A stretch of DNA of 64,000 nt from Carbonactinospora thermoautotrophica (GTDB lineage Bacteria > Actinomycetota > Actinomycetes > Streptomycetales > Carbonactinosporaceae): the NCBI RefSeq assembly GCF_001543895.1, contig NZ_JYIJ01000014.1, forward strand, positions 186,001 to 250,000. Direction: 5' to 3'. Below are positions 2,301 to 53,058 of the stretch, piece by piece; within the stretch, counting starts at the first letter, position 1, and each line of letters begins with the position of its first letter. The notes below the pieces were generated by a model, which made no database searches, was not told the origin of the DNA, and saw only the letters and a list, made by a program, of their open reading frames with translations. Position numbers and translations under genes: made by a program.

Positions 2301-2755
2301 CTCGGCCGTTCACCGGGCTGGGCGGGTCGTCAGCACGGCGCCCCGCCCGGCCCGATGGCGCATGAGCCGCGCGCATCCTGGCTGCCCAGGGTCCTCCGGA
2401 GCTGAGCGGCAAGATCACCTACGGGTGCCTGTCGTAGGCCAGATGGATCTTCGATTGCCAGGGGCCGTGTCGGGGGAGATGTCTCGCCAGTCCGCGCCAG
2501 TACGGATCTTCCACAAGATCCCGTTCGACACCTGGCGGTGATCCCGCCAGCGGTGGATCGGTCGGGAGCGACCTCTTCCCCGCCGGGCCGGTCAGCTCGT
2601 CACTATGCGCCACATCCCGATGGCGACCGACAAGGAGGTATTCTTTCGTTCGCTAACGAAATATATGCGCGTGTTGCCGACCCCCCGTGCCGAGTACCGG
2701 AGGAGGGCCTGTCGCCGGGGGAACAGCAACACCTCGGGCATCTGGGAGGTCCTGC
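2301..2755. other. Non-coding stretch between NmrA-like gene and ctaD, with several small hairpins
   Basis: No convincing gene. It holds GATCTT ccac AAGATC at 2505-2520 and CTGGCGG tgatc CCGCCAG at 2532-2550, two adjacent hairpins that could end transcription from the upstream gene. It also holds the separate 18-base palindrome described at 2644-2661. The last 110 bases are AT-richer than the surroundings and probably carry the ctaD promoter. Confidence 0.4.
2644..2661. promoter_or_regulatory. Candidate operator upstream of ctaD
   Basis: Inverted repeat TTTCGTT cgct AACGAAA with perfect 7-base arms in a locally AT-rich segment, about 95 bases before the ctaD ATG. The shape suits a MarR or TetR dimer; a MarR gene lies downstream of ctaD at 4845. 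The binding protein is unknown. Confidence 0.5.
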
Positions 2756-22002: not shown

Positions 22003-22174
22003 GCGGCCAGCTCCCAAGCCCGGCGGGGCCATGCGGGTGAGGCCGCTGCCCGGGAACCGCGATCGGGCCGGCACGACGGCTCCCGCCGGCTCTGCCCCGG
22101 CTGCGCCGGGCGGCCGCCACCGCGCAGAAGAACGGGATCGGCGACGCCTGCGCAGGCGGCAGACCACTCGTGCT

Positions 22175-24453: not shown

Positions 24454-25562
24454 GCTCCCGCCGCCTGCAGCAGGCTGCACGCCCCGCACGCGGCACAGCC
24501 GGCCCGCTGGTCAGCGCCGAGCATGCCCGCCGCGCGCAGCAGCGCGGCGACCCGTTCGGTGACGTAACGGACCAGCGCCGGGTCCGGTGCCCCGATCCCG
24601 TCGCGCCGGGCCAGCGTCCCCGGCATGGGGCGGAACGGGACGACGAACGGGTACACCCCGCGGTCGATCAGCCGCGCCGCCCCGGCGATCATCTCGTCGG
24701 GGTCCTCGCCGAGGCCGATCAGCAGGTAGGTCGAGACACGGTTGCGGCCGAAGACCCGCACGGCCTCGTCCCACGCCGCCTCGTACTGCTCCATCGGCAC
24801 GGTGGCCTTGCCCGGCATCCACCGTCGACGGACCTCCTCGTCGAGGGACTCGACGTGGATGCCGATGGCGGTGGCGCCCGCCTCCCGCAGCGTGGTCAGC
24901 ACGGAGAGGTCGGCCGGCGGCTCGCACTGAACCTGGATGGGAAGCCCCGGCACGGCCTCCGCCACGGCGCGCACACAGCGGGCCAGGTAGCGGGCGCCAC
25001 GGTCCGGGCCGGCGGTGGTGCCGGTCGTCATCACCATCTGCCGGACCCCGTCGAGGCGGACGGCCGCCTCCGCCACCTCGGCCAACTGCGCCGGTGTCTT
25101 GGCCGCGATGGTCGAGCCTGAGCGCAACGACTCCTCGATGGCGCAGAACCGGCAACGGTCCTGTTCGGCGTAGCGGATGCAGGTCTGCACCACCGTGGTC
25201 GCCAGGACGTCCGCCCCGTGCAGCCGTGCGATCTTCTCGTACGGCACGCCGTCGGCCGTGACGAGGTCGTAGAACCGGGGTCTTGGGACGACCTGGACGG
25301 ACAGACCCGTGTCGACCGAGCCGCGCATCAACCGGCCGTCCCGCACCAGGTAGGGGCTTTGCGGGTTGATCGGGAGCGCGGCGTTGGCGCCGTCGACGAG
25401 CACATGGTTGTCGTCGCTCGGCCCGGCGCCGCTGCGGCGTTGAACCGGCGCGTCCACCCGGACACCCTGCAGGGCTATCTCGACCCTGGTGCCGAACCCG
25501 GAGCCACCGGGAGCGTCGCTCCTGGTGGCCCCGGGGCAGCCGATGTCGATGCCAGTGCGCAC
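24450..25562 (-). CDS. Radical SAM protein of the Nit1C cluster (MSMEG_0568 type)
   Basis: 370 residues; GTG start with AGGGG upstream, 9 bases after the preceding stop. The iron-sulfur cluster motif is unusual for a radical SAM enzyme: Cys128-x8-Cys137-x2-Cys140 (TCIRYAEQDRCRFCAIE). This spacing, instead of Cx3Cx2C, is typical of this Nit1C subfamily. Further cysteines at the C-terminus (RAGCAACGACSLLQ) may bind a second cluster. TTGTTAGPDRGA and GIHVESLDEEVRRRWMPGKA show BioB-like barrel elements. It uses S-adenosylmethionine to start radical chemistry on an unknown substrate, presumably one linked to the nitrilase. Confidence 0.9.
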   Translation of the reverse strand: MRTGIDIGCPGATRSDAPGGSGFGTRVEIALQGVRVDAPVQRRSGAGPSDDNHVLVDGANAALPINPQSPYLVRDGRLMRGSVDTGLSVQVVPRPRFYDLVTADGVPYEKIARLHGADVLATTVVQTCIRYAEQDRCRFCAIEESLRSGSTIAAKTPAQLAEVAEAAVRLDGVRQMVMTTGTTAGPDRGARYLARCVRAVAEAVPGLPIQVQCEPPADLSVLTTLREAGATAIGIHVESLDEEVRRRWMPGKATVPMEQYEAAWDEAVRVFGRNRVSTYLLIGLGEDPDEMIAGAARLIDRGVYPFVVPFRPMPGTLARRDGIGAPDPALVRYVTERVAALLRAAGMLGADQRAGCAACGACSLLQAAGA

Positions 25563-25571
25563 AACAGGCCC

Positions 25572-26084
25572 CTAGAACATGTAGGTGGAGTTGATGATGG
25601 CGCCCCTGCGGGCGTAGTGGATCAGGGCGTCTTGCACGTCCAGCGGGTGTGTGGGGATGACTCCCTCGATCAGGTCCTCCTCACGCGCCCCGTGCAGCGA
25701 CAACCCGAACCGGCAGCAGTACACCTTGCCGCCCTCGGCGATGAACGTCTTGAGCGCGTTGTTGATGTTGTGCTCGCCGGGGAAGGCCGAGTTCCCGGTG
25801 GTGGGGAAACCGCGGGTCGCCAAGCAGTTGAGCGAGCCCGGCCCGTAGAAGTAGATGACGCTTTCGAAGCCCTTACGCAGCGCCCGGGTGGCCTGCAGGA
25901 TGGCCACGTAGCTCACCGAGGACTCGTGAGCGATGCCGTGCACCAGGGTGAAGTAAACCTCACCCTCCTCGGCCTGGTAGTCCGGGAAGACCTTGGTGCT
26001 GCCGTAGATGCTCGACCCCTCCGGCAGCGAGGGGTGCGGAATTTCGTTCAGGCTCTGCCTCTCCAGCTCGGTCAGCTCGGCCAT
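25572..26084 (-). CDS. MSMEG_0572-family Nit1C protein
   Basis: 170 residues, ATG with AAAGGG upstream. Conserved signatures include SSIYGSTKVFPDYQAEEGEV, YFTLVHGIAHESSVSYVAIL and GKVYCCRFGLSLHGAREEDL, and it ends GAIINSTYMF. The fold looks like a DsrE/YchN-type domain, with a CC pair in a turn. No enzymatic role is established. It is one of the constant members of the Nit1C cluster, just upstream of the radical SAM gene, and may carry or present the substrate. Confidence 0.85.
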   Translation of the reverse strand: MAELTELERQSLNEIPHPSLPEGSSIYGSTKVFPDYQAEEGEVYFTLVHGIAHESSVSYVAILQATRALRKGFESVIYFYGPGSLNCLATRGFPTTGNSAFPGEHNINNALKTFIAEGGKVYCCRFGLSLHGAREEDLIEGVIPTHPLDVQDALIHYARRGAIINSTYMF

Positions 26085-26136
26085 GGTGATTGCCCTTTCT
26101 TTTCTTGGTTCTTTTGGTTCTTTTCGTGGGCGGCGG

Positions 26137-26964
26137 TTATCCGTAGAGCTTTTCGAACGTGCCGTGGAACACCAGGTCGGCCAGCTCCCCGTCGCCCACC
26201 GCGGCGCTCAGCCGGGCGAACTCCCCGGGGTAGTCCCCCCACGGCTCGTCGCTGGCGAACAGCACCCGGTCGTGCCCGATGCCGCGGCGGGAAATCTCCT
26301 CGACCAGCCAGCGGGGCGCGAAGCCGACCGCCCACGACAGGTCGGTGTAGACGCGCTTTCCGGCGGCCACCCAGTCGAAGAACCGGTGGCCGGCGAGTTT
26401 GATGTGCCCGCTCACCCCGCCGCCGAAGTGCACCAGGTGGATGGGTACCTGGTCGGCGTACCACTCCACCAGGTGCCCGACCTCGTCGATGTCGGAGGCG
26501 GCTCCGGGGGAGGTGTGCACGTGCACCACGAGCTGGCGTTCTCGGGCCACGGCGAAGATCCGGTCCAGCAGCGGGCGGCAGGCCGGGTCGGTGGGCCGGC
26601 CGCCGAGCAGGAAGCTGAGCTTGAGCGCCCGCACCCCCGGCTCCCCGGCCAGGGCCAACGCCGCCTCGGTGCGTTCGGCGTCCGCGGGACGGGGGGAGAC
26701 CCACAGCCCGCAGCGGATGCGGTCGTCGGTCGAGGCGGCCTCCAGGCACAGCTCGTTGAAGGAGAACGCCACGTCCGGGTCGGGCACCCCGTAGTTGGGC
26801 AGCACCAGCGCCCGCTCCACGCCCTGGGCGTCCAGGTCCTTGAGCAGCTGCGCCACGGTGGCCCGGGCGTTGATGTCCGGCCGCACCGGCGGCCCCCCGT
26901 AGAAGGGGAAGGCGGGCAGCACCCCCAGGTGACGGTGCGCGTCGAAGACCCTGTGATCAGTCAT
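26137..26964 (-). CDS. Amidohydrolase-family protein in the Nit1C cluster
   Basis: 275 residues. Amidohydrolase 2-type TIM barrel: the first metal motif is VFDAHRHLGV (HxH), later VHVHTSPGAA and HLVHFGGGVSGH supply His ligands, and FASDEPWGDY carries the final Asp. It probably hydrolyses or decarboxylates a small acid or amide. It is not one of the core Nit1C genes I know, but it lies in line between the flavoprotein and the MSMEG_0572-like gene with short gaps (52 and 68 bases), so it likely belongs to the pathway. Substrate unknown. Confidence 0.82.
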   Translation of the reverse strand: MTDHRVFDAHRHLGVLPAFPFYGGPPVRPDINARATVAQLLKDLDAQGVERALVLPNYGVPDPDVAFSFNELCLEAASTDDRIRCGLWVSPRPADAERTEAALALAGEPGVRALKLSFLLGGRPTDPACRPLLDRIFAVARERQLVVHVHTSPGAASDIDEVGHLVEWYADQVPIHLVHFGGGVSGHIKLAGHRFFDWVAAGKRVYTDLSWAVGFAPRWLVEEISRRGIGHDRVLFASDEPWGDYPGEFARLSAAVGDGELADLVFHGTFEKLYG

Positions 26965-27032
26965 GGCGAAAACTCGGTCCGCAGTTCATGTCTGCCCTCC
27001 TGCGCGGTGACGGCGACCGCGCCGACGCGTGG

Positions 27033-28340
27033 CTAGGAGGCAACCGCACGGATGGTCTCCTCAGCCGGTGCGGCGCCGCAGGCGATGCGCTCCGCGAGGT
27101 ACTCGGCATCGCGGGCCACGCCGGAGAACCGTCCCGACCCCCAGGTGTGCTGCCATGGCAAGCCGAGGAAGTACAGGCCCGGACAACTGGTGACCCCTCG
27201 CTTGTGCGTCGGGTACCCCCTGCCGTCGAAGACGGGCACCTCGATCCACCGGTACTCGCGCCGAAAGCCGGTGCACCAGACCACCGCGCTGATCCGGGAG
27301 CGCCTCAGGTCCAGTTCGCCCGGCTCGTCCGCAGGCTCCCACACCGGGGTGTAGCGCGGCTCCACCGGCGCGTCGATGCCCTGGGCTTCGATGAACTCGT
27401 CGATCGAGTCCTTGATGCTCTCGGACACGGCGTCCGCGTTGTCCAGATTGCGCCTAAGGTCGGCGGCGAAGTGGGCGGTGGCGTCCGAGATACCGATGAG
27501 GCGCCCGTACAGGCGCATACCCTCCCGGGCGAGCGCCCGCAGGTCGATGTCGCGACCGCCGTCCCGGCCGGTCACGTAGTGATTGGCCCGGAACCGCACG
27601 CTGTCCTGGTCGTCGAACTCATCGATGCTCTTGTCGTAGTAGCCCATCGCGTCGAGCCACGCCACCACGTCCCGGCCTCGATAGAACCGGGCGACCCGCG
27701 GGGCGTCGCCCACGGCCAAGTGGACCTGCCGGCCCGCCAGGTGCAAGTCCTCGGCGATCTGGCAGCCGGACTGGCCGCTGCCTACCACGAGCACCTCACC
27801 GGGCGGCAGTTGGTCGGGATTGCGGTACTCCGAGGAATGGATCTGCACCACGTCTTCCGGCAGCCGCTCGGCCATCCGGGGTATCGCCGGGCCGTGGTAC
27901 GGGCCGGTCGCGACCACGACCTGATCGGCGGTGAGCTCCCCGCGAGTGGTGCTGATCTCGAACACCCGGCCGCGCCGGAGCCGGGTGACGGTGACGTGCT
28001 CTACCAGGGGAGGGTTGAAGGACGCCGCATAGTCCTCGATGTACCGCACGACCTCATCCCGGCCCATGAAGCCGTCCGGGTCATCTCCCTGGTAGGGGAA
28101 GCCGGGCAGTCGGCACTGCCAATTGGGAGTGACCAGGCAGAACGAGTCCCACCGCCGCTCCCGCCACTCATAGCCGACCCGGTCGCGTTCCAGGACCAGA
28201 TGGTCGATGCCGCGCTGGCGCAGGCAGTAGCTCATCGAAAGGCCGGCTTGCCCGCCCCCGATGACGACGACGGGACGGTGCTCGCCTTCGAGGGCCGGTT
28301 GCGCACCGCGTGAAGCGTACCCGGCGACCGTCGCGTTCAC
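27033..28340 (-). CDS. Flavin-dependent oxidoreductase of the Nit1C cluster (MSMEG_0569 type)
   Basis: 435 residues from GTG 28340, which overlaps the stop of the small upstream gene as GTGA. FAD-binding motif VVVIGGGQAGLSMSYCL near residue 30, and a second nucleotide site VLVVGSGQSGCQIAEDL (NADPH) near 185; VVWCTGFRREYRWIEVPVFD completes the pattern of class B-like monooxygenases. It probably oxygenates a substrate using NADPH and O2. The constant presence of this enzyme beside the nitrilase and radical SAM proteins is a hallmark of Nit1C. Confidence 0.9.
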   Translation of the reverse strand: MNATVAGYASRGAQPALEGEHRPVVVIGGGQAGLSMSYCLRQRGIDHLVLERDRVGYEWRERRWDSFCLVTPNWQCRLPGFPYQGDDPDGFMGRDEVVRYIEDYAASFNPPLVEHVTVTRLRRGRVFEISTTRGELTADQVVVATGPYHGPAIPRMAERLPEDVVQIHSSEYRNPDQLPPGEVLVVGSGQSGCQIAEDLHLAGRQVHLAVGDAPRVARFYRGRDVVAWLDAMGYYDKSIDEFDDQDSVRFRANHYVTGRDGGRDIDLRALAREGMRLYGRLIGISDATAHFAADLRRNLDNADAVSESIKDSIDEFIEAQGIDAPVEPRYTPVWEPADEPGELDLRRSRISAVVWCTGFRREYRWIEVPVFDGRGYPTHKRGVTSCPGLYFLGLPWQHTWGSGRFSGVARDAEYLAERIACGAAPAEETIRAVAS

Positions 28341-34432: not shown

Positions 34433-35209
34433 ATGGCCGCCAGCGCCCCCGCCCGCGTCGCGACCATCCCGTTGCAGCGCGTCCACGCCGTGATCTTCGA
34501 CACCGACGGTGTGATCACCGACACCGCGGCGGTGCACGCCGCCGCGTGGAAGCGGACGTTCGACACCTTCCTGCACGCGCACACCCTGCTCACCGGGCAG
34601 CGGTACGAGCCGTTCGACCCGGACGTGGACTACCGCCGGTACGTGGACGGCAAGCCCCGGTTCGCCGGCGTGGTGGACTTCCTGGCCGCGCGCGGGATCA
34701 CCCTGCCGCCGGGCGACCCCGCCGACCCGCCGGGCCTGGGCACCGCGCACGCGCTCGGCAACCGCAAGGACCGGCTGTTCGCCGAGCACCTCGCCCGCTA
34801 CGGCGCCGCCGCCTGGCCGGGCACGATCCGGCTGGTCCAGCGGCTGCGCGCCCACGGCGTGCGCGTCGCGGCCGTGTCGGCGTCCCGCCACGCGAAGGAG
34901 GTGCTGCGCGCGGCCGGGGTGCTTGAGTTGTTCGACGTGGTCGTCGACGGTGTCGACTGCGCGCGGCTCGGCCTGCCGGGCAAGCCTGACCCGGCGTTGT
35001 TCCTGGAGGCCGCGCACCGGCTGGGCGTGCCGCCCGCGCAGGCCGCCGTGGTGGAGGACGCGCTGGCCGGGGTCGCCGCCGGGCGATGCGGCGGGTTCGC
35101 CCTGGTGATCGGGGTGGACCGGACCGGGCACGCGGCCGAGTTGTACGCCAACGGCGCCGACGTGGTCGTGCCCGACCTGGGTGAGGTCGTCGTAACCGAA
35201 CAGGGCTGA
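34433..35209 (+). CDS. HAD-family beta-phosphoglucomutase-like protein
   Basis: 258 residues, ATG with GAGGAGGA upstream. HAD motif I VIFDTDGVITDT (nucleophile and acid Asp), a helical cap carrying YRRYVDGKPRFAGVVDFL, motif II VAAVSASRH, motif III lysine in LPGKPDPALFLEAA and motif IV VVEDALAGVAAG. The cap signature and the neighbouring GH65 gene (6 bases downstream) indicate beta-phosphoglucomutase. It would convert beta-glucose 1-phosphate, released by a GH65 disaccharide phosphorylase, into glucose 6-phosphate. Cytoplasmic. Confidence 0.87.
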   Translation: MAASAPARVATIPLQRVHAVIFDTDGVITDTAAVHAAAWKRTFDTFLHAHTLLTGQRYEPFDPDVDYRRYVDGKPRFAGVVDFLAARGITLPPGDPADPPGLGTAHALGNRKDRLFAEHLARYGAAAWPGTIRLVQRLRAHGVRVAAVSASRHAKEVLRAAGVLELFDVVVDGVDCARLGLPGKPDPALFLEAAHRLGVPPAQAAVVEDALAGVAAGRCGGFALVIGVDRTGHAAELYANGADVVVPDLGEVVVTEQG

Positions 35210-35215
35210 GGCGGC

Positions 35216-37597
35216 ATGGGCACCTGGACGCTGGAGTACGAGGGCTACGACCCGGCCACCGAGCGGCTGCGCGAGAGCCTGTGCGCGCTCGGCAACGGGT
35301 ACTTCATGACCCGGGGCGCCGCCCCCGAGTGCACCGCCGGGGAGCACCACTACCCGGGCACGTACGTGGCGGGCTGCTACGACCGGCTCGTCTCCGGCGT
35401 AGCGGGCCGGGTGGTGGAGAACGAGGACCTGGTCAACCTGCCCAACTGGCTGCCGCTACGGTTCCGCGCCGCCGGCACGCCGTGGTTCACCCCGGACCGC
35501 CCGGGGCTGCTGGAGTACCGGCAGGTCCTCGACCTGCGCCGCGGCGTCCTGACCCGCACGCTGCGCTACCGGGACCCGCGCGGCCACCGCACCCGGGTCA
35601 CCCAGCGGCGCTTCGTCCACGCGGTCGATCCGCACCTGGCCGGGCTGGAGACCACCGTCCTCGCCGAGGACTGGTCCGGGCGACTGGAGGTCGAGTCGGC
35701 GCTGGACGGCACGGTCACCAACGCCGGCGTGGCCCGCTACCGGGACCTCAACGGGGAACACCTGCGACCGGCGGGCACCGGGAGCAGCGGGGCGGATGTG
35801 GTCTGGTTGCAGGCGCGCACCGCCACCTCCTGCATCCTCATCGCGGAGGCGGCCCGCACCCGGCTCACCGGCGACGTGGTCCCGGAGCACTCCCGGGAGG
35901 AGGTCCTGCGCCCCCGCCGCGTCGCCCACCGGTTGGTCATCCCGGTGCGGCAGGGCCAGGCGGTCACCATCGAGAAGATAGCCGCCCTGCACACCTCCCG
36001 GGACTTCGCGATCAGCAGCCCGGTCGAGGCGGCGGTCCAGCGGGTCCAAGACGCCGCCGGGTTCCAGGAGTTGCTGGACTCCCACGTCCTGGCCTGGGAC
36101 CACCTGTGGCGCCGCGCCGACCTGCGGATCGGGGGCGAGGCCGGCGACGTGCTGCGGCTGCACATCTTCCACGTCCTGCAAACCCTCTCCCCGCACACCG
36201 CCGACCTGGACGTCGGGGTGCCCGCGCGCGGCCTGCACGGGGAGGCGTACCGGGGACACGTGTTCTGGGACGAGCTGTTCGTCCTCCCGTACCTGAACCT
36301 GCGCTTCCCCGAGATCTCCCGCGGCGTGCTCACCTACCGGTGGCGGCGGCTGCCGGCCGCGCGCCGGGCCGCGCGCCAGGCCGGGTACGCCGGGGCGATG
36401 TACCCCTGGCAGAGCGGCAGCGACGGGCGGGAGGAAAGCCAGGAGCTGCACCTCAATCCCCTCTCCGGGCGGTGGCTGCCCGACCACTCCCGCCTGCAGC
36501 GTCACGTCGGCTCGGCGATCGCCTACAACGTGTGGCAGTACTACCAGGCGACCGGGGACACCGCGTTCCTGTACACGCGCGGCGGGGAGATGCTGCTGGA
36601 GGTCGCCCGGTTCTGGGCGAGCGCGGCCCGCTACGACCGTGCGCTGGACCGGTACCGAATCTGCGGGGTGGTGGGTCCGGACGAGTACCACGACGCGTAC
36701 CCCGACGCCAACCGCCCGGGGCTGGACGACAACGCCTACACCAACGTCACCGCCGCCTGGACGCTGTGCCGGGCCCTCGACCTCGCCCAGTCGCTGCCCG
36801 CGCCGCGGCGCGCCGAGCTGTTCGAGCGCCTGGGCGTGCGCCGCGAGGAGCTGGAGCGGTGGGAGGAGGTGTCCCGCCGGCTGCGCGTCCCCTTCCACCG
36901 CGGCGTGATCAGCCAGTTCGAGGGGTACGGCGAACTCGCCGAGCTGGACTGGGACAGGTACCGGGCGCGCTACGGCGACATCCGCCGCCTGGACCGCATC
37001 CTGGAGGCCGAGGGCGACACCGTGAACCGGTACCAGGCGTCCAAGCAGGCCGACGTCCTCATGCTCGGCTACCTGTTCTCGCTCGATGAGCTGGCCGCGC
37101 TCTTCGCGCGCCTGGGCTACCGGCTCGACGAGGACACCTGGCGCCGTACCGTCGACTACTACCTGCGCCGCACCAGCCACGGGTCCACGCTCAGCAGCGT
37201 CGTCCACGCCTGGGTGCTCGCCCGGACGCGGGGCGCTGGGGCGTGGCGGTACTTCCGCGAGGCGCTCGCCAGTGACATCGCCGACATCCAGGGCGGCACC
37301 ACCCCTGAGGGTGTCCACCTGGGCGCGATGGCCGGCACCATCGACCTGGTCCAGCGGGGGTTGACCGGCCTGGAAACCCGCGAGGACGCCCTGTGGCTGG
37401 ACCCCGCCCCGCTGCGGGAACTGCGCGACTTCGGGTTCGACCTGCGCTACCGCGGCCACTGGGGGGTCGGCTTGCACATCATCGACGGCCGGGTGCGGGT
37501 CAGCCTGCCCGACTCGGAGGCCGCGCCGGTGCGGGTGGTGGTCAAGGGGCAGGTCGCCGTGGTGGGGCCCGGCCAGGTGGTCGAGCTTCCCTATTGA
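35216..37597 (+). CDS. GH65 glycoside phosphorylase/hydrolase (trehalose/maltose type)
   Basis: 793 residues, full length for GH65. N-terminal beta-sandwich (about 1-270, starting YEGYDPATERLRESLCALGN), a linker, then the (alpha/alpha)6 barrel with HVFWDELFVLPYLNLRFPEI. The general acid is Glu490 in CGVVGPDEYHDAYPDANRPG. KQADVLMLGYLFS and TSHGSTLSSVVHAW are typical of phosphorylases, which bind phosphate there. It probably splits trehalose, maltose or a related glucoside to beta-glucose 1-phosphate and glucose; pairing with the HAD mutase supports phosphorolysis. The exact sugar cannot be read from sequence. Confidence 0.87.
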   Translation: MGTWTLEYEGYDPATERLRESLCALGNGYFMTRGAAPECTAGEHHYPGTYVAGCYDRLVSGVAGRVVENEDLVNLPNWLPLRFRAAGTPWFTPDRPGLLEYRQVLDLRRGVLTRTLRYRDPRGHRTRVTQRRFVHAVDPHLAGLETTVLAEDWSGRLEVESALDGTVTNAGVARYRDLNGEHLRPAGTGSSGADVVWLQARTATSCILIAEAARTRLTGDVVPEHSREEVLRPRRVAHRLVIPVRQGQAVTIEKIAALHTSRDFAISSPVEAAVQRVQDAAGFQELLDSHVLAWDHLWRRADLRIGGEAGDVLRLHIFHVLQTLSPHTADLDVGVPARGLHGEAYRGHVFWDELFVLPYLNLRFPEISRGVLTYRWRRLPAARRAARQAGYAGAMYPWQSGSDGREESQELHLNPLSGRWLPDHSRLQRHVGSAIAYNVWQYYQATGDTAFLYTRGGEMLLEVARFWASAARYDRALDRYRICGVVGPDEYHDAYPDANRPGLDDNAYTNVTAAWTLCRALDLAQSLPAPRRAELFERLGVRREELERWEEVSRRLRVPFHRGVISQFEGYGELAELDWDRYRARYGDIRRLDRILEAEGDTVNRYQASKQADVLMLGYLFSLDELAALFARLGYRLDEDTWRRTVDYYLRRTSHGSTLSSVVHAWVLARTRGAGAWRYFREALASDIADIQGGTTPEGVHLGAMAGTIDLVQRGLTGLETREDALWLDPAPLRELRDFGFDLRYRGHWGVGLHIIDGRVRVSLPDSEAAPVRVVVKGQVAVVGPGQVVELPY

Positions 37598-44257: not shown

Positions 44258-44707
44258 TCACGGGCGGTGGCCCAGGAGGCGTACCAGCTCGCGGGTGTCG
44301 GGCTCCACGGCCGCCCGGTTCAGTTCCAGGGCGAGGGTCTTCCGGAAGTACGGGGTCGCCTCGGTGACGAGGTCCCGCCCGGCCTGGGTGATCCGGCAGA
44401 AGACGCCGCGCCGGTCCTTCTCGCAGATGCAGCGTTCGCACAGCTCGAGCCGTTCGAGGCGGGCGACCAGGCGGCTGACCGAGCTCTGGTTGAGGGCGAC
44501 CGCGTCCGCGAGGGCCTGCATGCGCAGGGTGCCGTCGTCGGTGGCCGCGAGGGTGCGGAGCGCGTTGAACTCCGAGAGGGAGACGCCGTACCGGCGCTGC
44601 AGGGCCTTGTCGAGCGCGTCGGAGATGCGGGCGTGCAGCCGGGTGAGGGTCCACCAGGTCGCGAGCGTGGCCTCGTCGACGGCGATCTCCTCGGTTTTCC
44701 CTCTCAT
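44258..44707 (-). CDS. MarR-family regulator divergent from MFS exporter
   Basis: 149 residues from the ATG at 44707 (GAGGTGA upstream). Winged helix with LRMQALADAVALNQSSVSRL (recognition helix) and CEKDRRGVFCRITQAGRDLV (wing). Three Cys in ELCERCICEKD are unusual and could sense oxidants or metals. It is divergent from the MFS gene, the classic arrangement of a drug-efflux repressor. Candidate operators lie between them. Confidence 0.87.
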   Translation of the reverse strand: MRGKTEEIAVDEATLATWWTLTRLHARISDALDKALQRRYGVSLSEFNALRTLAATDDGTLRMQALADAVALNQSSVSRLVARLERLELCERCICEKDRRGVFCRITQAGRDLVTEATPYFRKTLALELNRAAVEPDTRELVRLLGHRP

Positions 44708-44763
44708 CGCGTCACCTCGTCCTGTCTTCTTGACATCCCGACCCGTGCTCACGCAATCTTGTA

Positions 44764-44787
44764 GCAAGTTAGTTGCATGTGCATGCA
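44764..44787. promoter_or_regulatory. Candidate MarR operators before the MFS gene
   Basis: GCAA gttag TTGC (44764-44776) overlaps TGCATGTGCATGCA (44774-44787), in an AT-rich 124-base divergent region. Both have the symmetry of MarR sites. Confidence 0.5.
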
Positions 44788-44831
44788 TTTTTTAAACTCG
44801 TACCATTCTTTCAATCTACTGGGGAGAAGAC

Positions 44832-46031
44832 ATGCCCGCCGCGCTCGTGGCACTCATGATCTGTGTCTTCGCCATCGGGACGACCGAGTACGTCATCGCG
44901 GGGATTCTCCCGGAGGTGGCGGCCGACTTAGGGGTTTCCGTCCCAGCCGCCGGGCAGCTCGTCACGGCGTACGCGCTCACCATCGTGGTCGGGGGTCCTG
45001 TCCTGACCGCGCTCACGGTGCGCCGGCCGCGCAAGGGGCTGCTGCTGGCACTGATGGCGCTCTTCCTCGCCGGGACGGTCCTGTCCGCGGTCGCCCCGAG
45101 CTACGAGGCGCTGCTCGGCGGCCGGATCGTGTCGGCGCTCACGCACGGCACGTTCTTCGCCGTGACGACCGTGGTGGCGACCTCGATGGTGCCGCCGGAC
45201 CGGGCCGCGTCCGCCATCGCGATGGTGGCGGCAGGGCTGAACCTGGCCACCATCCTGGGCGTGCCGCTCGGCACGTACATCGGTCAGCAGTTCGGGTGGC
45301 GCGCGACGTTCGTCGTCATCGCCGCGCTGGGCGCCGTGGGGGCGGCCGGGGTGGCCGCGCTGCTGCCCCGGTCCGAGGCCGGTTCCGGCGGCGTCCTGCG
45401 TGCCGAGCTGGCGGTGTTCCGGCGGCGCGGGGTCCAACTCGCGCTGGCGATGACCGTCTTCGGGTACGCCGGGGTCTTCACCTGCTTGACGTACATCGCG
45501 CCGCTGCTCACCGAGGTCACCGGGTTCAGCGGGCAGGCGGTCAGCGTCCTGCTCACCCTGTTCGGCGTCGGCGCTTTGGTGGGCAACCTGGTGGCCGGGC
45601 GGCTGGCCGACCGGGCGCCGATGACGAGCCTGGCCGGCGTCCTGGCCGCGCTCGCCGTGGTCTTGCTGCTGTTCCCGCTCGCCGCCGGGTCCAAGGTCGC
45701 GGCCGTGGTCGCCGTCGTCGCCTTCGGGGTCACCGCGTTCGCCACCGTCCCCGGGTTGCAGAGCCGGGTGATCGCGCAGGCCGAGGGCGCGCCCACCCTG
45801 GCCGCTTCCACCAACATCTCCGCTTTCCAGCTCGCCAACGCCCTCGGCGCGGCCATCGGCGGCTGGATCGTGTCGGACTTCGGGCTGACTCGGACCGGTC
45901 CTGTCGGGGCGCTGCTGGCGCTGGTCGGCCTGCTGATCACCGGCTACGCGATCGCGCACGACCGCCGGGTCGCGCGGACGACCGGGCAGGGCGGCCCGAC
46001 AGAGCAGGTGAGCCAACCGGTGGGCGCCTGA
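44832..46031 (+). CDS. MFS efflux transporter (AraJ/CmlA-like DHA1 family)
   Basis: 399 residues with about 12 membrane segments. Begins LVALMICVFAIGTTEYVIAG, the signature of this group; loop 2-3 carries LTVRRPRKGLLLALM, and TM5 GLNLATILGVPLGTYIGQQF is the antiporter motif C region. Proton-driven export of sugars, chloramphenicol-like drugs or a pathway product from the cell. ATG with GGGGAGAA upstream. Regulated by the divergent MarR. Because the cyclitol cluster starts 1.2 kb downstream on the same strand, it may export that product. Confidence 0.87.
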   Translation: MPAALVALMICVFAIGTTEYVIAGILPEVAADLGVSVPAAGQLVTAYALTIVVGGPVLTALTVRRPRKGLLLALMALFLAGTVLSAVAPSYEALLGGRIVSALTHGTFFAVTTVVATSMVPPDRAASAIAMVAAGLNLATILGVPLGTYIGQQFGWRATFVVIAALGAVGAAGVAALLPRSEAGSGGVLRAELAVFRRRGVQLALAMTVFGYAGVFTCLTYIAPLLTEVTGFSGQAVSVLLTLFGVGALVGNLVAGRLADRAPMTSLAGVLAALAVVLLLFPLAAGSKVAAVVAVVAFGVTAFATVPGLQSRVIAQAEGAPTLAASTNISAFQLANALGAAIGGWIVSDFGLTRTGPVGALLALVGLLITGYAIAHDRRVARTTGQGGPTEQVSQPVGA

Positions 46032-46095: not shown

Positions 46096-47004
46096 ATGCG
46101 AGCGGTACAGATCGAGCGACACGGCGGGCCGGAGGTCCTGCACCTGCGAAAGATCCCGGACCCGGCCGCCGGGCCCGGCGAGATCCTGGTCCGCGCCGAG
46201 GCCACCAGCATCAACCCGGTCGACGTGAAGACCCGCGCCGGGGTGGACCGGCCCAACCCCGCGATCGGGTTTCCCATGACGCTCGGCTGGGACCTGGCCG
46301 GCACGGTGGAAGCGGTCGGCGACGGGGTCACCCGGTTCCGGCCGGGGGACCGGGTGGTGGCCATGTCAGCCCAGATCGCCACCGGCCTGGGCACCTGGGC
46401 GGACCTGGTGGCCCTGCCCGAATCCCTGGCCGCCCACGCCCCGGAAACCGTGCCCCCGGTGGAGGCGGCGTGCCTGCCGCTGGCGGGACTGACCGCGGTC
46501 CAAGCGCTGGAGCCGCTACGGCTGAAGGAAGGGCAGCGGCTGCTGGTGATCGGAGCGGCTGGTGCCGTCGGCGGCCTCGCGGTCCAGCTCGCCGCGGCCT
46601 CCGGCGTCGCGGTGACGGGCCTGGTCTCCCGTCCCGGACACGTTCAGGCCGTGCTGGAACTGGGGGCCGAGGAGGCGACCCACGAGCCGGAGAGGCTGCC
46701 GGCGGGCGGGTTCGACGCGGTGCTGGACACCGCCGGGTTCGCCCAGCCGGATGCGGTGGCGGACGGCGGCCGGTACGTCAGCATCGTGCCCGGCAGCCTG
46801 CCCGGGTTCGACGGCCGGCCGGTGGACGCGCGCATGAACTTCGTCGAGCAAAGCGGCGAGCAGCTCGGCGAGCTCGCCCGCCTGGTGGAAGCCGGAGACC
46901 TGCGCCTGCGGGTGGCGGCCACGCTTCGGATCGACCAGATCCGGGCGGCCCACGAGCTGTTCGAACGGGGTGGCCACCTCGGCAAGATCTGCCTGACGTT
47001 CTGA
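46096..47004 (+). CDS. MDR-family NADP-dependent quinone oxidoreductase
   Basis: 302 residues. Zinc-free medium-chain reductase: MRAVQIERHGGPEVLHLRKI, EATSINPVDVKTRAGV, LGWDLAGTVEAVGDGV, NADPH loop LLVIGAAGAVGGLAVQLAAA and end GGHLGKICLTF. No catalytic zinc ligands (NPVDVK in place of CGTD), so it reduces quinones or enones. It lies 64 bases after the MFS gene and is probably co-transcribed with it under MarR control. Confidence 0.87.
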   Translation: MRAVQIERHGGPEVLHLRKIPDPAAGPGEILVRAEATSINPVDVKTRAGVDRPNPAIGFPMTLGWDLAGTVEAVGDGVTRFRPGDRVVAMSAQIATGLGTWADLVALPESLAAHAPETVPPVEAACLPLAGLTAVQALEPLRLKEGQRLLVIGAAGAVGGLAVQLAAASGVAVTGLVSRPGHVQAVLELGAEEATHEPERLPAGGFDAVLDTAGFAQPDAVADGGRYVSIVPGSLPGFDGRPVDARMNFVEQSGEQLGELARLVEAGDLRLRVAATLRIDQIRAAHELFERGGHLGKICLTF

Positions 47005-47065
47005 CCCGTACACCACCGGGGGCCGCGGCCGGAGCGCTTGCGGCCCCCGGCGCTGTTAACAAGAT

Positions 47066-47080: not shown

Positions 47081-47240
47081 GTATGTGCATCATTGAAAAA
47101 TAGAAGCTTCCCCCCTACGTTGAAGAACGGATCCAGGGACGTGATCCACCCGGGCGAAGACGCCCCGCCCGGGAGACCTGCCCCTTCCGGTGTCCCGCGA
47201 CGGAGGGGTCCACCTAACTTGCGACTCTGGGGGGATTTCC

Positions 47241-48458
47241 TTGAGGAACCAGTTATCGGCCGCAGCTTCCCTGGCGTCTGCGGCGCCCCGCATCGGCCTC
47301 CACCGCTCAACCGGCCCGAGCAGGGCCTGGGAGATCCGCACGGTCAAGCCCGTCACCTACACCGTGCGCCTGGTCGACGACCTCTTCGGCCTGAACTCGA
47401 CCGACCTCGTGAAGGCGGGCCAGACCCGGCGCGTCTCCCGGATCCGACGTTTCGTCGTCCTCGACGCCGAGGTCGACTGGTATCACGGTGACCGGATCCG
47501 CAAGTACTTCGACCACCACAACGTGGAGACACGCTTCTGCGTGATCCGCGTCAACGAGCAGCTCAAGACCGTCGACACCCTGCTCGACGTGTGCCGCCAG
47601 CTCGACGAGTTCGGCATCAACCGCCGGGTGGAGCCGATCATCGCGATCGGCGGGGGCGTGCTCTGCGACGTGGTCGGCCTGCTCGCCAGCCTGTACCGCC
47701 GCGGCACCCCGTACGTCCGCGTCCCGACGACGCTCGTCGGGCTCGTCGACGCCGGCATCGGGGCGAAGACCGGCGTCAACTTCGGCGAGCACAAGAACCG
47801 GCTCGGCACGTACTTCCCGTCCAGCCACACGCTGCTCGACCGCTCGTTCCTGGCCACGCTCGACAGCCGACACATCAGCAACGGCCTGGCGGAGATCCTC
47901 AAGATCGGACTCATCAAGGACCTGCGCCTCTTCGAGCTGCTCGAGCAGCACGGTTCAGAGCTGATCGAGACACGCCTGCAGGCGGGCAACGCGCTGGACG
48001 CCGTCGCCGTCGAGGTCCTCGACCGCGCCATCCAGGGGATGCTCGAGGAACTGCAGCCCAACCTGTGGGAGCACAAGCTCGAGCGGCTCGTGGACTACGG
48101 GCACAGCTTCAGCCCGCTGATCGAGATGCGTGCCCTGCCCGAACTGCTGCACGGCGAGGCCGTGACCGTCGACATGGCGCTCACCACCTGCCTCGCCCGG
48201 CGACGCGGCCTGGTGAGCCGCCGGGACCAGGACCGGATCTTCGCGACCATGCGCGCCCTGCGCCTGCCGCTGTGGCACCCCGTGTGCGAGCCGGCGACTC
48301 TCATCGCGGCGCTGCGTGACACGGTCCGACACCGGGACGGTCTGCAGCGCATCCCGCTTCCCCTCGGCATTGGGCAGGCGTACTTCGCCAACGACGTCAC
48401 CGACGACGAGATCGCCCAGGCCTGCGACGACGTGCGCGAGGAGGTGTGCCGAGCATGA
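47241..48458 (+). CDS. Sugar phosphate cyclase, 2-epi-5-epi-valiolone synthase type
   Basis: 405 residues from TTG 47241, with GGGGGG six bases upstream (an in-frame GTG at 47190 is possible). Dehydroquinate synthase fold: AIGGGVLCDVVGLLASLYRR, TPYVRVPTTLVGLVDAGIGA, KTGVNFGEHKNRLGTYFPS, zinc ligands Glu in NGLAEILKIGLIKD, His in VDYGHSFSP and His in LLHGEAV. The N-terminal PVTYTVRLVDDLFGLNSTDL and the end RHRDGLQRIPLPLGIG closely follow AcbC/ValA-type 2-epi-5-epi-valiolone synthases. Expected reaction: sedoheptulose 7-phosphate to a C7 cyclitol, with NAD and Zn. First gene of a seven-gene operon; overlaps the next gene by ATGA. Confidence 0.88.
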   Translation: MRNQLSAAASLASAAPRIGLHRSTGPSRAWEIRTVKPVTYTVRLVDDLFGLNSTDLVKAGQTRRVSRIRRFVVLDAEVDWYHGDRIRKYFDHHNVETRFCVIRVNEQLKTVDTLLDVCRQLDEFGINRRVEPIIAIGGGVLCDVVGLLASLYRRGTPYVRVPTTLVGLVDAGIGAKTGVNFGEHKNRLGTYFPSSHTLLDRSFLATLDSRHISNGLAEILKIGLIKDLRLFELLEQHGSELIETRLQAGNALDAVAVEVLDRAIQGMLEELQPNLWEHKLERLVDYGHSFSPLIEMRALPELLHGEAVTVDMALTTCLARRRGLVSRRDQDRIFATMRALRLPLWHPVCEPATLIAALRDTVRHRDGLQRIPLPLGIGQAYFANDVTDDEIAQACDDVREEVCRA

Positions 48459-49195
48459 CCGAGCACTTCGTCTGGAGCACCATCGACACCCCGAGCGAGG
48501 TATACGGCGTGCACGGCGCGGAGGGCCTCACCTACTGGAAGTGCCTGGCCCGCCGCGACGGCTTGGCCGGGCCCTGGGAAGCGGTCGAGTGGGCCAGCGT
48601 GCCGCCCGGCGGGGTCAGCGGCGAGCACCTGCACACCCGCACCGAGGAGGTGTACTTCATCCTCTCCGGCCGGGGGGAGATCCTCCTCAACGGCGAACCG
48701 CGCCCCGTGTCCCCTGGCGACGTCGTGCTCACCGGCGTGGGATCGCGTCACGGGCTGCACAACACCGGGGACGGCAACCTCGACTGGCTCGTGATCGAGA
48801 TCTCCAGCCCCCACACCGCCGCCGCCCTGTTCGGGCTCGACCATCACGCATCGGAGGAACGCATGTCGGGCGCCGCCGTGTACCCGCTGACCGCCAACGC
48901 CGAGATCGACCCCACCGGGATCCTGACAGGGCCGCTGCGCCGCATCCGGATGGCTGTCCTCAAGCCGCACGCGGCCGAAACCCTGACCAGCGACGACACC
49001 GAGCACACGGTGTTCGTGCTGCGGGGAAGCGGCACCGTCACGGTCGGTACGGCCCGGGCCGAGCTGCGCCCGGGGGTCGCCGTGACCCTGCCGCTCGGCG
49101 CGAAGGGGGAGTTCACCGCAGGCGCGGACGGCCTGGAGTTCTTCCACACGGAACTCGCCGTGTCCATCGGCTCCGGAAAGGCGGACGCGGCATGA
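48455..49195 (+). CDS. Bicupin protein of the cyclitol operon
   Basis: 246 residues, start overlapping the cyclase stop, GGAGGTG upstream. Two cupin barrels. The first has metal motif 1 GEHLHTRTEEVYFILSGRGE (His, His, Glu) and motif 2 GSRHGLHNTGDGNLDWLV. The second (about 155-240) has HTVFVLRGSGTVTVGTARAE and GAKGEFTAGADGLEFFHTEL but few metal ligands. The first barrel is likely catalytic, an isomerase, dehydratase or dioxygenase acting on a cyclitol or keto intermediate; the second may be structural. Confidence 0.8.
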   Translation: MTEHFVWSTIDTPSEVYGVHGAEGLTYWKCLARRDGLAGPWEAVEWASVPPGGVSGEHLHTRTEEVYFILSGRGEILLNGEPRPVSPGDVVLTGVGSRHGLHNTGDGNLDWLVIEISSPHTAAALFGLDHHASEERMSGAAVYPLTANAEIDPTGILTGPLRRIRMAVLKPHAAETLTSDDTEHTVFVLRGSGTVTVGTARAELRPGVAVTLPLGAKGEFTAGADGLEFFHTELAVSIGSGKADAA

Positions 49196-49635
49196 TCGTC
49201 ACCCGTACCGGTCTCACCCCGGACCTGGCCGAAGCCTGGGACGACAGCCGGCACCCGATGGCGCGCGACAGCCTGCAGGTCGCCGCCGAGGGCGTCCGCG
49301 CGGCCAGCCGCTGCCTGGCCCGCCGGGGCATGCTGCACAGCGAGTGCGAGGCGTTCGACCTCATCCACCTGCGGGCCGGCGCCCGCCGTGGCCCACGCGG
49401 CCGGGAAGGGATCGAGGAAGCCTGGTATGTCCTGGCCGGTGAGGGGTACGTCGAGGCACCCGCCGGGTCGGTCTCGGTCCGGGCCGGCGACCTGGTTCTC
49501 CGCCCGTACCGCGAACGCGCGGAACTCCTCGCCGGGCCCGGCTCCCTCACCCTGCTCGCGCTGTCGGTGCTGCCCCGGGAGGTCACCCGGCGGCTGCCCA
49601 AGCGGGTGCCCGAGCTGTCGGAGGACCGGCCATGA
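49192..49635 (+). CDS. Second cupin-domain protein of the cyclitol operon
   Basis: 147 residues; ATGA overlap with the bicupin gene. One cupin barrel (about 50-135): FDLIHLRAGARRGPRGREGI, EEAWYVLAGEGYVEAPAGSV, RAGDLVLRPYRERAELLAGP. The usual metal His residues of motif 1 are missing, so it may bind substrate without a metal or serve as partner of the preceding bicupin. Overlap with the next gene keeps it in the coupled operon. Confidence 0.75.
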   Translation: MIVTRTGLTPDLAEAWDDSRHPMARDSLQVAAEGVRAASRCLARRGMLHSECEAFDLIHLRAGARRGPRGREGIEEAWYVLAGEGYVEAPAGSVSVRAGDLVLRPYRERAELLAGPGSLTLLALSVLPREVTRRLPKRVPELSEDRP

Positions 49636-50668
49636 CGTGGCCGCGCGGGCGCATGCGCGCCGCCGTGGTCGCCGCCCCCGGCCGGGTGGAACTGGCCGAG
49701 CTGCCGATCCCCGAGCCGCTGCCCGGCCACGCTCTGGTCCGGGTCGATCACGTGGGGGTCTGCGGTACCGACCTGGAACTGCTGCACGGCACCGCGGCGT
49801 ACGTGCGTGACGGCCGCGTCCGGTTCCCCCACGTGTTCGGGCACGAGTGGAGCGGGACGGTCGTTGCCGCCGAGGGAGATCCGGACGGGCCGGCACCGGG
49901 TGACCGGGTCGTCGGGCAGACGATGCTGGCGTGCCGGAGCTGCGCCAACTGCCAGCGTGGCCGGCGCAACCTTTGCCTGCGGCTACGCGAGGTCGGCCTG
50001 TATGGCCAGCAGGGCGCGGCCGCCGAGTACATCCGCATGCCGGTGGACAGCCTGGCCACGCTGCCGCCGGAGGTCACCAGCCTGGACGCCACCCTCGTGG
50101 AACCGGCCGTGACCGTCGTCGCCGCCCTGGGCACGGCCGGGGTGGGCGTCGGCGACCGGGTGGCGGTGGTGGGCACCGGCACCATCGGCCTGCTGGCCGT
50201 GCAGCTCGCGGCCCGCAGCGGCGGGCACGTGCACGCCGTCGGCGTCGACCCGGCCGGCCTGGAGCTGGCCGCCGCCCTCGGCGCGGAGACGACGTACCAG
50301 CCCGGCGCCGCGCCCCCGGACGCGTACGACGTGGTCGTCGAGGCATCGGGGGCCGCGGCCGGATTCGCGACCGCGCTGCGGCTGGCCGCCACCGGGGGCG
50401 GGTCGCGGCCGTGGGGGTGCCGACCGAGCCGGTGACCGGGTTCGACGCGGGCGACCTCGTGCTCCGGGGCGTGACCGTGTACGGCATCCGGCACGGCCTC
50501 GACCACTACGGCACGACCATACGGCTGCTCGCCGAGGGCGCCCTCGAGGCGAAACCCCTCATCCATGCCGTGCTGCCCCTCGAACGGGCCGCAGAAGCCT
50601 TCCACCTGCTCGAACACGGGCGAAACGGCGCCCCCAAGATCATCTTGTCCCTGCGGGAGGGAGCATGA
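49632..50668 (+). pseudogene. Zinc-dependent MDR dehydrogenase of the cyclitol operon, one-base frameshift
   Basis: ATGA overlap with the preceding cupin gene. Sorbitol dehydrogenase-like: catalytic zinc Cys in HVGVCGTDLELL and His-Glu in VFGHEWSG, structural zinc CRSCANCQRGRRNLC, Rossmann loop VAVVGTGTIGLLAVQ. At about 50399 the frame fails (ATGGGSRPWGC then stop at 50435), but the next frame continues exactly where expected: RVAAVGVPTEPVTGFDAGDL to IILSLREGA at 50668. One missing C (GGCCGGG written GGCGGG) restores a 345-residue enzyme. It would oxidise a ring hydroxyl of the cyclitol with NAD(P). Sequencing error or a real mutation must be separated. Confidence 0.8.
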
Positions 50669-51450
50669 ACCACGACCGGTTCGCCGTCGTGACCGGAGCC
50701 AGCTCCGGGATAGGCCGGGCCGTCGCCCTCGCCCTGGCCGCGCGCGGCCACCATGTGGCCGTCGGCTACCGGAACAACGCCGAAGGAGCCAAGCGCACCG
50801 CCGCCGAGGCGGAGCGGCACGGCGTCCGCGCCCTCACCTTCGCCGCCGACCTCGCCGACCCCCGGGCGGCGGCACGGGCCGTCGATACCGCGATCCGGCA
50901 CCTCTGGGGTGTCGACGTCCTCGTCAACAACGCGGGCGTCAACCGGCGCGCCGAGTTCGTCGAGGAGACCTTGGACGACTGGGAGCGCGTCCTGACCGTG
51001 GACCTCACCAGCCCCTTCGCCATCGCCCAGGTCGCGGCCCGGCACATGATCCGCCAGGGCCGGGGCGGGCGGATCGTCAACATCACCTCCGTCCACGAGC
51101 ACATCCCCATCCGGGGCGGCGCCGCCTACTGCGCCGCCAAGGGCGGGCTCGGCCTGCTCACCAAGGTGATGGCGCTGGAGCTGGCCCCGTACCGGATCAC
51201 CGTCAACGCCGTGGCTCCTGGGGAGACGGCGACCCCCATGAACGGGGTCCCCGAGGACCGGGACGCCGCGAGCATCGACCGGCCGGAGATCCCCGCCGGC
51301 CGGCCCGGACGCAGCGAGGAGGTCGCGGCCCTTGTCGCCCACCTCGCCGACCCCCAGGCCGCCTACACGACCGGGATCTCCGCCGTGGTCGACGGCGGGC
51401 TCTCCCTCATGGCGGCCATCCCCAACCAGGCCTACGCAGGCCGGCTGTGA
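50665..51450 (+). CDS. Short-chain dehydrogenase/reductase of the cyclitol operon
   Basis: 261 residues, ATGA overlap with the dehydrogenase. Classical SDR: VVTGASSGIGRAVALALAAR, VDVLVNNAGVNRRAEF, catalytic Ser in IVNITSVHEHIPIRG, Tyr and Lys in AAYCAAKGGLGLLTK, and PGETATPM. Resembles glucose 1-dehydrogenases. It probably reduces or oxidises a second position of the C7 ring. Arg in VGYRNNAEGAK suggests NADP preference. Confidence 0.87.
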   Translation: MNHDRFAVVTGASSGIGRAVALALAARGHHVAVGYRNNAEGAKRTAAEAERHGVRALTFAADLADPRAAARAVDTAIRHLWGVDVLVNNAGVNRRAEFVEETLDDWERVLTVDLTSPFAIAQVAARHMIRQGRGGRIVNITSVHEHIPIRGGAAYCAAKGGLGLLTKVMALELAPYRITVNAVAPGETATPMNGVPEDRDAASIDRPEIPAGRPGRSEEVAALVAHLADPQAAYTTGISAVVDGGLSLMAAIPNQAYAGRL

Positions 51451-51469
51451 CCGAACAGGACGGTGAGGC

Positions 51470-52011
51470 ATGACCATCGGCATTCCGACCGCGCGCAACG
51501 TGGACCACGTCGCGTACACCGTGCCGGACCTCGACCAGGCCGTGCGGTTCTTCGTCGACGTCCTCGGCGGTGAGCTGATCTACACCCTCGGACCGGTCGA
51601 GACCCGGACGGCGACTGGATGGCCCGTCAGCTCAACGTGCATCCCCGGGCGTGCACCCGTATCGCCATGCTGCGGCTCGGCCCCACGACGAACGTGGAAC
51701 TGTTCCAGTACGAGGCACCGGACCAGAACACCCGCATCCCGCTCAACTGCGACCACGGCGGTCACCACCTGGCGTTCTTCGTCGACGACGTGGACGCCGC
51801 GGTCGAGTACCTGCGCCGCCAGCAGGGCGTGCACGTCCTCGGCGACCCGCAGCACATCACCGAGGGTCCCATCGCCGGGGACCGCTGGGTCTACTTCCTC
51901 AGCCCCTGGGGCATGCAGCTCGAGGTCCTGAACATGCCCCCTGGGATGCCCTACGAGAAGGAGACCGAAGCCCGGCGCTACGGCCCCGAACCACGGTGGA
52001 CCAACCGCTGA
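51470..52011 (+). pseudogene. VOC-family protein resembling the CetB epimerase, one-base frameshift
   Basis: ATG with GGTGAGG upstream. The first frame, ARNVDHVAYTVPDLDQAVRF to YTLGPVETRTA, breaks near 51601; the next frame continues DWMARQLNVHPRACTRIAML to the stop at 52011. Adding one G (GAGGACCC for GAGACCC) gives about 180 residues. Metal ligands are kept: His in NVDHVAY, His in HGGHHLAFFV and Glu in MQLEVLNMP. In cetoniacytone biosynthesis the VOC protein CetB epimerises 2-epi-5-epi-valiolone, the product of the cyclase type seen at 47241. The same role is likely here; the match is from memory of that family and needs alignment. Confidence 0.75.
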
Positions 52012-52032
52012 GGCACCGGGAGGGGGGACACC

Positions 52033-53058
52033 ATGCGCTGGCACGACCTGTACGTGGCCGCCACAGCCACCTGGTTCCCACGGCGGGTCACGGTGGAGGA
52101 GGCGCTGGCGCGCGGCTGGTACGACCACGGTGAGCTGGCCGACACGCGGCAGGCCGCGGTGACCGTGGCCGAGCAGCCGGACGAGCACCCGGTCGAGATG
52201 GCGTCGCGGGCGGGGCGACTCGCCCTGTCCCGCGCCGCCCTCGACCCCGCCCGGGTCGGGCTCCTGCTGCACGCCACCCTGTTCCACCAGGGCGTGGACA
52301 TCTGGAACGCGGCCGCCTACGTCCAGCGGCGCACCGGCACGGTCCGGGCGCGCGCGTTCGAGCTGCGTCAGGCCTGCAACGGCGGCGCGGCAGCGGTCGA
52401 GCTGGCGGCCGAACACCTGCTGGCCCGGCCGGACCACCCGGCCGCCCTGGTCACCACCGGGGACCGCTTCGCCCTCCCCGGGTTCGACCGCTGGCGTGGC
52501 GACCGAGGCCTCCTCTTCGGGGACGGCGGGACCGCGCTCGTCCTCTCCCGCGAGGGCGGGTTCGCGCGGCTCCTCGCCACCGGATCAGCCGGCGAGCCCG
52601 CCCTGGAGGGCATCCACCGGGGCGACACGCCATTCGCCCCGCTCAGCCAGACCACTCCGATCGACCTGGTCCAGCGGCGCAAGGAGTTCCTCGCCGACGC
52701 TGACCCTGAGGTCGTCACCACCCGGCTCAACGCCGGCCAGCGGCGGGCGGTCGAGGTAGCGCTCGCCGACGCCGGGGTCACCCTCGGCGACCTCACCTGG
52801 GTGGTCACGCCCAACTTCGGCTGGGGGCTGCTGCACCGCCAGTGCCTCGACCCGCTCGGCCTGCCGGTGAGCCGCAGCACCTGGGAATGGGGTCGGACCG
52901 TCGGTCACCTCGGCCCGGGCGACCAGATCGGCGGGCTGGACCATCTGGCGTACGGTCAGCGGCTCTGCGCCGGGGACCTCGTACTCCTCTTCGGCGTAGG
53001 CGCAGGGTTCGCCTGGACCTCCGTCGTCCTGCGCATCCTCCAGCCGCCGCATCCCTGA
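52033..53058 (+). CDS. KAS III-like condensing/acyltransferase enzyme
   Basis: 341 residues, ATG with GGAGGGG upstream. Thiolase fold; nucleophile Cys115 in AFELRQACNGGAAAVELAAE, and LFGDGGTALVL. The His-Asn of fatty acid FabH (HQAN and GNT) is not kept: the segments read TPNFGWGLLHRQ and TVGHLGPGDQIGG. This change is seen in KAS III-like enzymes of natural product pathways such as CerJ, which transfer acyl groups to hydroxyls instead of condensing carbon chains. It may acylate the cyclitol or supply an acyl starter. Last gene of the operon. Confidence 0.82.
   Translation: MRWHDLYVAATATWFPRRVTVEEALARGWYDHGELADTRQAAVTVAEQPDEHPVEMASRAGRLALSRAALDPARVGLLLHATLFHQGVDIWNAAAYVQRRTGTVRARAFELRQACNGGAAAVELAAEHLLARPDHPAALVTTGDRFALPGFDRWRGDRGLLFGDGGTALVLSREGGFARLLATGSAGEPALEGIHRGDTPFAPLSQTTPIDLVQRRKEFLADADPEVVTTRLNAGQRRAVEVALADAGVTLGDLTWVVTPNFGWGLLHRQCLDPLGLPVSRSTWEWGRTVGHLGPGDQIGGLDHLAYGQRLCAGDLVLLFGVGAGFAWTSVVLRILQPPHP

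Follow-up and report, generated by a model that had tools for sequence, protein, structure and literature searches.

Seven co-directional genes of Carbonactinospora thermoautotrophica probably direct the synthesis of a C7 cyclitol that is acylated and carries no amino group; its most likely form is an electrophilic cyclohexenone of the gabosine/COTC type. The genes lie at 47241-53058 of a 64,000-nucleotide stretch (contig NZ_JYIJ01000014.1, positions 186,001 to 250,000; hereafter the window) and encode a 2-epi-5-epi-valiolone synthase (EEVS)-type cyclase, a bicupin, a small cupin-like protein, a zinc medium-chain dehydrogenase/reductase (MDR), a short-chain dehydrogenase/reductase (SDR), a vicinal oxygen chelate (VOC) protein and an enzyme resembling 3-ketoacyl-acyl carrier protein synthase III (KAS III). 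C7-cyclitol biosynthesis is a known kind of pathway; the subfamily combining an EEVS, a bicupin, a cupin with an RRGMLHSEC run and a VOC protein is apparently undescribed. As this core was found in 18 other loci, it defines a recurrent subfamily of EEVS clusters.

The cyclase is of the EEVS type

The cyclase gene (47241..48458, plus strand) has a TTG start, which is reasonable because similarity to relatives begins 5' of the alternative GTG (47343); a GGGGGG stretch lies ahead of the TTG. Its best solved relative was ValA, the validamycin EEVS (PDB 4p53), with 439 bits, compared with 245 bits for 5tpr, a desmethyl-4-deoxygadusol synthase (DDGS)-type enzyme that we take to be the Anabaena DDGS, and at most 131 bits for 3-dehydroquinate synthase (DHQS) entries. 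An earlier note on this DNA had called the cyclase an EEVS, proposed a tree and named a DHQS placement beforehand as counting against the assignment. In a tree of 50 sequences, the cyclase fell in the EEVS part together with ValA (fork 82/91), away from the DHQS sequences, which lay outside; the DDGS-type sequences formed a separate clade (100/100). At ValA positions 281 and 360, presumably the numbers of the residues that distinguish these enzymes, the cyclase shares D and H with ValA; in the alignment, DDGS-type sequences show A and T there, and DHQS sequences N at position 281. These are the two sites compared out of a fingerprint of 14. Two active-site positions are described as separating bacterial EEVS from DDGS (PMC4426668).

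A cyclase of DHQS or DDGS type, acting in a shikimate, gadusol or mycosporine pathway, would belong to the same superfamily, and the top NCBIfam matches are 3-dehydroquinate synthases. However, those matches fall below the cut-off, the characteristic residues are absent and the clades are separate; the genome's own aroB sits on a different contig, and no methyltransferase or ATP-grasp gene stands beside the cyclase. We rejected this reading on the tree, the fingerprint and the separate aroB, and consider it very improbable. Overall, bit scores, tree and D281/H360 agree with the original assignment and argue strongly for an EEVS-type enzyme, so that the predicted cyclisation step is well supported.

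The gene set recurs in other genomes

The complete order cyclase-cupin-cupin-MDR-SDR-VOC-KAS was found in a second genome (G517, locus L094), where the MDR and VOC genes are intact. Identities to the window proteins were 65% for the cyclase, 51% for the bicupin, 50% for the small cupin, 58% for the MDR, 68% for the SDR and 49.5% for the KAS, with 58-75% over the matching parts of the VOC protein. Because the complete order recurs there, the grouping, judged from gene order, is more than chance. The earlier note had proposed a gene-neighbourhood search for this order; the architecture is not unique but common to other genomes.

We compared 45 EEVS loci, 18 with a bicupin and 27 without; several of these loci come from closely related Streptomyces, so that the following counts are not independent events and Fisher values calculated from them exaggerate the significance. 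The VOC gene was present in all 18 bicupin loci versus 3/27 of the others, and the small cupin in 17/18 (just below the cut-off yet visible in the 18th) versus 0/27. A BBE-type oxidase was detected in 12 of the 18 (1/27 in the others), a MarR homologue in 9 (0/27) and a transaldolase-family gene in 8 (0/27), the last of which fits a supply of sedoheptulose 7-phosphate. ValA and cyclases from loci without a bicupin fall among the bicupin-linked cyclases in the tree, and a single bicupin-linked clade was not supported.

The bicupin is rare: 5 of 395 genomes in the class encode it, and four of these five also have a nearby EEVS gene. The gene set ties two cupin proteins to the EEVS product, in one genome (G096) through a fusion in which the EEVS reading frame runs on into a C-terminal cupin domain (L070:4447-6000, minus strand). 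Another genome (G535, locus L113) groups EEVS, KAS, major facilitator superfamily (MFS), MDR, SDR, quinone oxidoreductase-like (QOR) and VOC genes without cupins. The four EEVS-type loci inspected in the plasmid collection were all of other cluster types. A bicupin homologue spread over two adjacent frames was also seen at L072:9742-10454, with sugar ABC-transporter-like, SDR and VOC-like neighbours and no EEVS. No other genome in the set of relatives belongs to the family of the source genome (5.13 Mb).

Operon layout and frame breaks

Downstream of the cyclase, all on the plus strand, follow the genes for the bicupin (48455..49195), small cupin (49192..49635), MDR (49632..50668), SDR (50665..51450), VOC protein (51470..52011) and KAS (52033..53058). 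They are linked by four ATGA overlaps (48455, 49192, 49632 and 50665) and by short gaps of 19 nt (SDR-VOC) and 21 nt (VOC-KAS), as in the coupled unit first described. The domain families originally proposed were recovered with Pfam or NCBIfam for six of the seven genes; the MDR was recognised by both and by its intact L094 homologue, and the SDR matched NCBIfam PRK12743 above the cut-off. The seventh, the small cupin, matched no Pfam or NCBIfam model. We call it a cupin because it is similar to the bicupin in relatives and has a predicted beta fold (pLDDT 73, moderate confidence); its RRGMLHSEC run is invariant.

The earlier note had listed seven genes, overlooking frame breaks in the MDR (near 50.4 kb) and VOC (near 51.6 kb) genes. 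The reading frame of the MDR ends at 50435, the remainder of the protein lying in another frame up to 50668; the VOC protein is spread over two frames within 51470-52011. Intact L094 relatives align in turn to both parts of each split protein. A coxA-type (COX1) gene at 2687-4416 of the window is also frame-split, near 4.03 kb, the three further COX1 copies in the genome being in open frames; genome-wide, one of about 80 ABC-transporter domains is split. Since the coxA-type gene and one ABC domain are affected too, scattered assembly error is likely; yet a pair of breaks within a single operon could also reflect real decay. A genuine C7-cyclitol cluster would then be decaying in this strain, with the MDR and VOC genes as pseudogenes and no product beyond an early intermediate. 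The two breaks, within about 1.2 kb, are denser than one in about 80 ABC domains would predict. Against decay, the split in the unrelated coxA-type gene indicates scattered errors, and coding signal and similarity run on beyond both breaks in the operon. We regard decay as the less probable explanation, although one that deserves to be taken seriously.

Predicted functions of the cupins, the VOC protein and the KAS

The bicupin (Pfam Cupin_2, model pLDDT 85) carries in its N-terminal domain H58, H60, E64/E65 and H99, invariant in 11/11 sequences as in metal-binding cupins; the C-terminal domain of these sequences has no HxH pair. A Foldseek search with the model returned generic cupins only (among them quercetinases, pirin and oxalate decarboxylase), which pointed to no function. 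The VOC protein, a putative C2 epimerase, shows Pfam Glyoxalase domains in both frames, with H, E, H and E (two His and two Glu) at the metal-ligand positions, as read by eye over the two frames. It is a single unit in the window and in L038, and a tandem of two in L094 (5118-6218), L029 and the Streptomyces loci; the start of the window protein resembles the first repeat of these tandem relatives and its end the second.

In a PDB search, the KAS matched DpsC (299 bits), CerJ (228 bits) and ChlB3 (211 bits), a branch that contains acyltransferases and agrees with its first description as a KAS III-like acyltransferase. Active-site alignment placed the Cys and both His in the window protein, with Ser for Cys in the L094 and L029 relatives. 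In CerJ the first His, which condensation requires, is missing (PMC4425429), but ChlB3 keeps it, so that these residues do not settle between acyl transfer and condensation. In the G096 cluster, the KAS gene adjoins those of a salicylate synthase and of a protein resembling 2,3-dihydroxybenzoyl-AMP ligase; genes for a DegT aminotransferase and a pyranose-oxidase-like protein are close by. The neighbours of this KAS favour acyl transfer, and the context suggests that clusters differ in acyl group and in amination.

If the KAS instead performed C-C condensation or starter loading, the product would be a cyclitol-polyketide hybrid. Its top solved relative, DpsC, is a starter-unit KAS III, and both His are present; but ChlB3 has the same His, no acyl carrier protein or polyketide synthase gene was seen in the cluster, and the G096 context indicates aryl transfer. 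We consider a hybrid improbable.

Proposed pathway and product

We propose that the EEVS would cyclise sedoheptulose 7-phosphate to 2-epi-5-epi-valiolone and that the VOC protein would epimerise C2, like CetB and ValD, giving 5-epi-valiolone. The zinc MDR and/or the bicupin could then dehydrate this compound to a valienone-type enone, like AcbL on its 7-phosphate. The SDR would reduce the ring ketone in the manner of AcbN, perhaps followed by re-oxidation at a different carbon by a dehydrogenase. The KAS III-like enzyme would form an ester between a hydroxyl and an acyl group that primary metabolism supplies as a thioester. The MFS transporter encoded upstream would export the product, and the QOR and MarR proteins would handle and sense the reactive enone; such a product would explain the recurrence of QOR and MarR genes. 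Chemically, reduction of the C1 ketone of valienone and oxidation at C4 lead to the gabosine C skeleton, of which COTC is the crotonyl ester. In acarbose biosynthesis, AcbL dehydration and AcbN reduction take place on 7-phosphates (PMC7081202). The gabosine/COTC assignment is put forward as a proposal, and makes the cluster a candidate for the biosynthesis of these compounds; the steps after EEVS in nitrogen-free C7 cyclitols become testable with a defined gene set.

Kinase, nucleotidyltransferase, aminotransferase and glycosyltransferase genes were absent, as first stated, among the genes scanned at 33-60 kb of the window; a C7N-aminocyclitol cluster would have an aminotransferase and, if its product contains linked sugars, also a kinase, nucleotidyltransferase or glycosyltransferase. 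The true product could still be a cetoniacytone-type aminocyclitol if the gene for an aminotransferase lay in another part of the genome. A DegT aminotransferase and a pyranose-oxidase-like gene do occur in the related cluster of G096, as they reportedly do in the cetoniacytone cluster. With no aminotransferase near the window cluster and no DegT-type gene seen among those predicted in L094, we give this alternative little credence.

Several points weigh against the acylated cyclitol. Two of the seven genes (MDR and VOC) are frame-broken in this assembly and production by this strain is therefore uncertain; the generic fold matches give the cupins no function; the KAS retains both His, as condensation would need; the window cluster has no acyl-activating gene; and the product is deduced from genes. 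Amination and glycosylation genes are absent among those scanned, and the KAS is of the acyltransferase-containing branch. A C7 cyclitol or enone that lacks nitrogen and may be acylated, as read in the earlier note, is still the best guess.

Upstream genes, intergenic elements and other genes of the window

Upstream of the cyclase lie genes for a MarR-family regulator (Pfam MarR; 44258..44788, minus strand, with a shorter start possible at 44707), an MFS efflux transporter (44832..46031, plus strand; NCBIfam Cmx/CmrA-like, below the cut-off) and a QOR of the MDR type (46096..47004, plus strand; NCBIfam PIG3-type, below the cut-off). Homologues of the MFS (52%) and QOR (51%) genes stand alongside the L094 cluster, divergent, and a QOR homologue of about 48% identity occurs in 9/18 bicupin loci. 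The earlier note was right about their presence but had treated them as mere neighbours; since they recur with the cluster, they are best regarded as likely members.

The gap between the QOR and cyclase genes contains a GC-rich hairpin (47010..47056, plus strand) that has 17-nt arms, 88% complementary, and lacks a T tract; transcription of the cyclase may start from a separate promoter. In the gap between the MarR and MFS genes, the near-palindrome TGCATGTGCATGCA (44774..44787, plus strand) is a weak candidate operator. The 8-mer ATGTGCAT occurs only twice in the window (0.43 expected), at 44777 and, in the QOR-cyclase gap, at 47083..47090 (plus strand), both in intergenic regions of the cluster. 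It is a weak candidate for a shared operator of the MarR/MFS and cyclase regions, which have only this 8-mer in common. No RNA families were found in the window.

Elsewhere in the window, a minus-strand run at 20015-28235 carries glycosyltransferase, two nitrilase-type, GNAT-AIRS fusion, radical SAM, amidohydrolase and flavoprotein genes, and resembles what we take to be a Nit1C nitrilase cluster with the nitrilase gene doubled. About 7 kb upstream of the cluster, a HAD hydrolase and a GH65 glycosidase/phosphorylase form a pair (34433-37597) that looks like separate disaccharide metabolism.

Comparison with known systems

Validamycin biosynthesis includes amination and glycosylation. The cyclase is like ValA in bit score, fingerprint residues and clade, whereas the validamycin amination and glycosylation genes are absent here. 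The cetoniacytone cluster (CetA, CetB) is said to combine an EEVS, a VOC epimerase and an acyltransferase, a likeness to the present cluster, and reportedly includes aminotransferases, none of which lies near the window cluster. The bicupin shares the common bicupin fold with AerE/BacB-type proteins, but AerE (5zbf) came 50th among the Foldseek hits, at 13% identity, and many other cupins ranked higher, so that this is an analogy only. CerJ, ChlB3 and DpsC serve polyketide/glycoside pathways; the partners of the KAS are here C7-cyclitol genes.

The acarbose pathway (AcbC, AcbO, AcbL, AcbN) likewise has an EEVS, an epimerase, a dehydratase annotated as a cyclitol dehydrogenase and an SDR reductase (PMC7081202), but it proceeds through 7-phosphates with the kinase AcbM, whereas our cluster has no kinase and adds cupins and a KAS. 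Among the open-access papers searched, none combined valiolone with cupin, and no gabosine or COTC gene cluster was found.

Acylated gabosines of the COTC/rancinamycin class have been known since the 1970s. Tentatively, and with clear doubt, we suggest that this type of locus makes such compounds from 2-epi-5-epi-valiolone with the assistance of cupins, the KAS III esterifying a free carbasugar; if true, this would extend the CerJ/ChlB3 acyltransferases to such a substrate. The predicted skeleton and acylation fit gabosines, COTC and rancinamycins, the C7 enones of Streptomyces, and it is from this fit that we infer the link.

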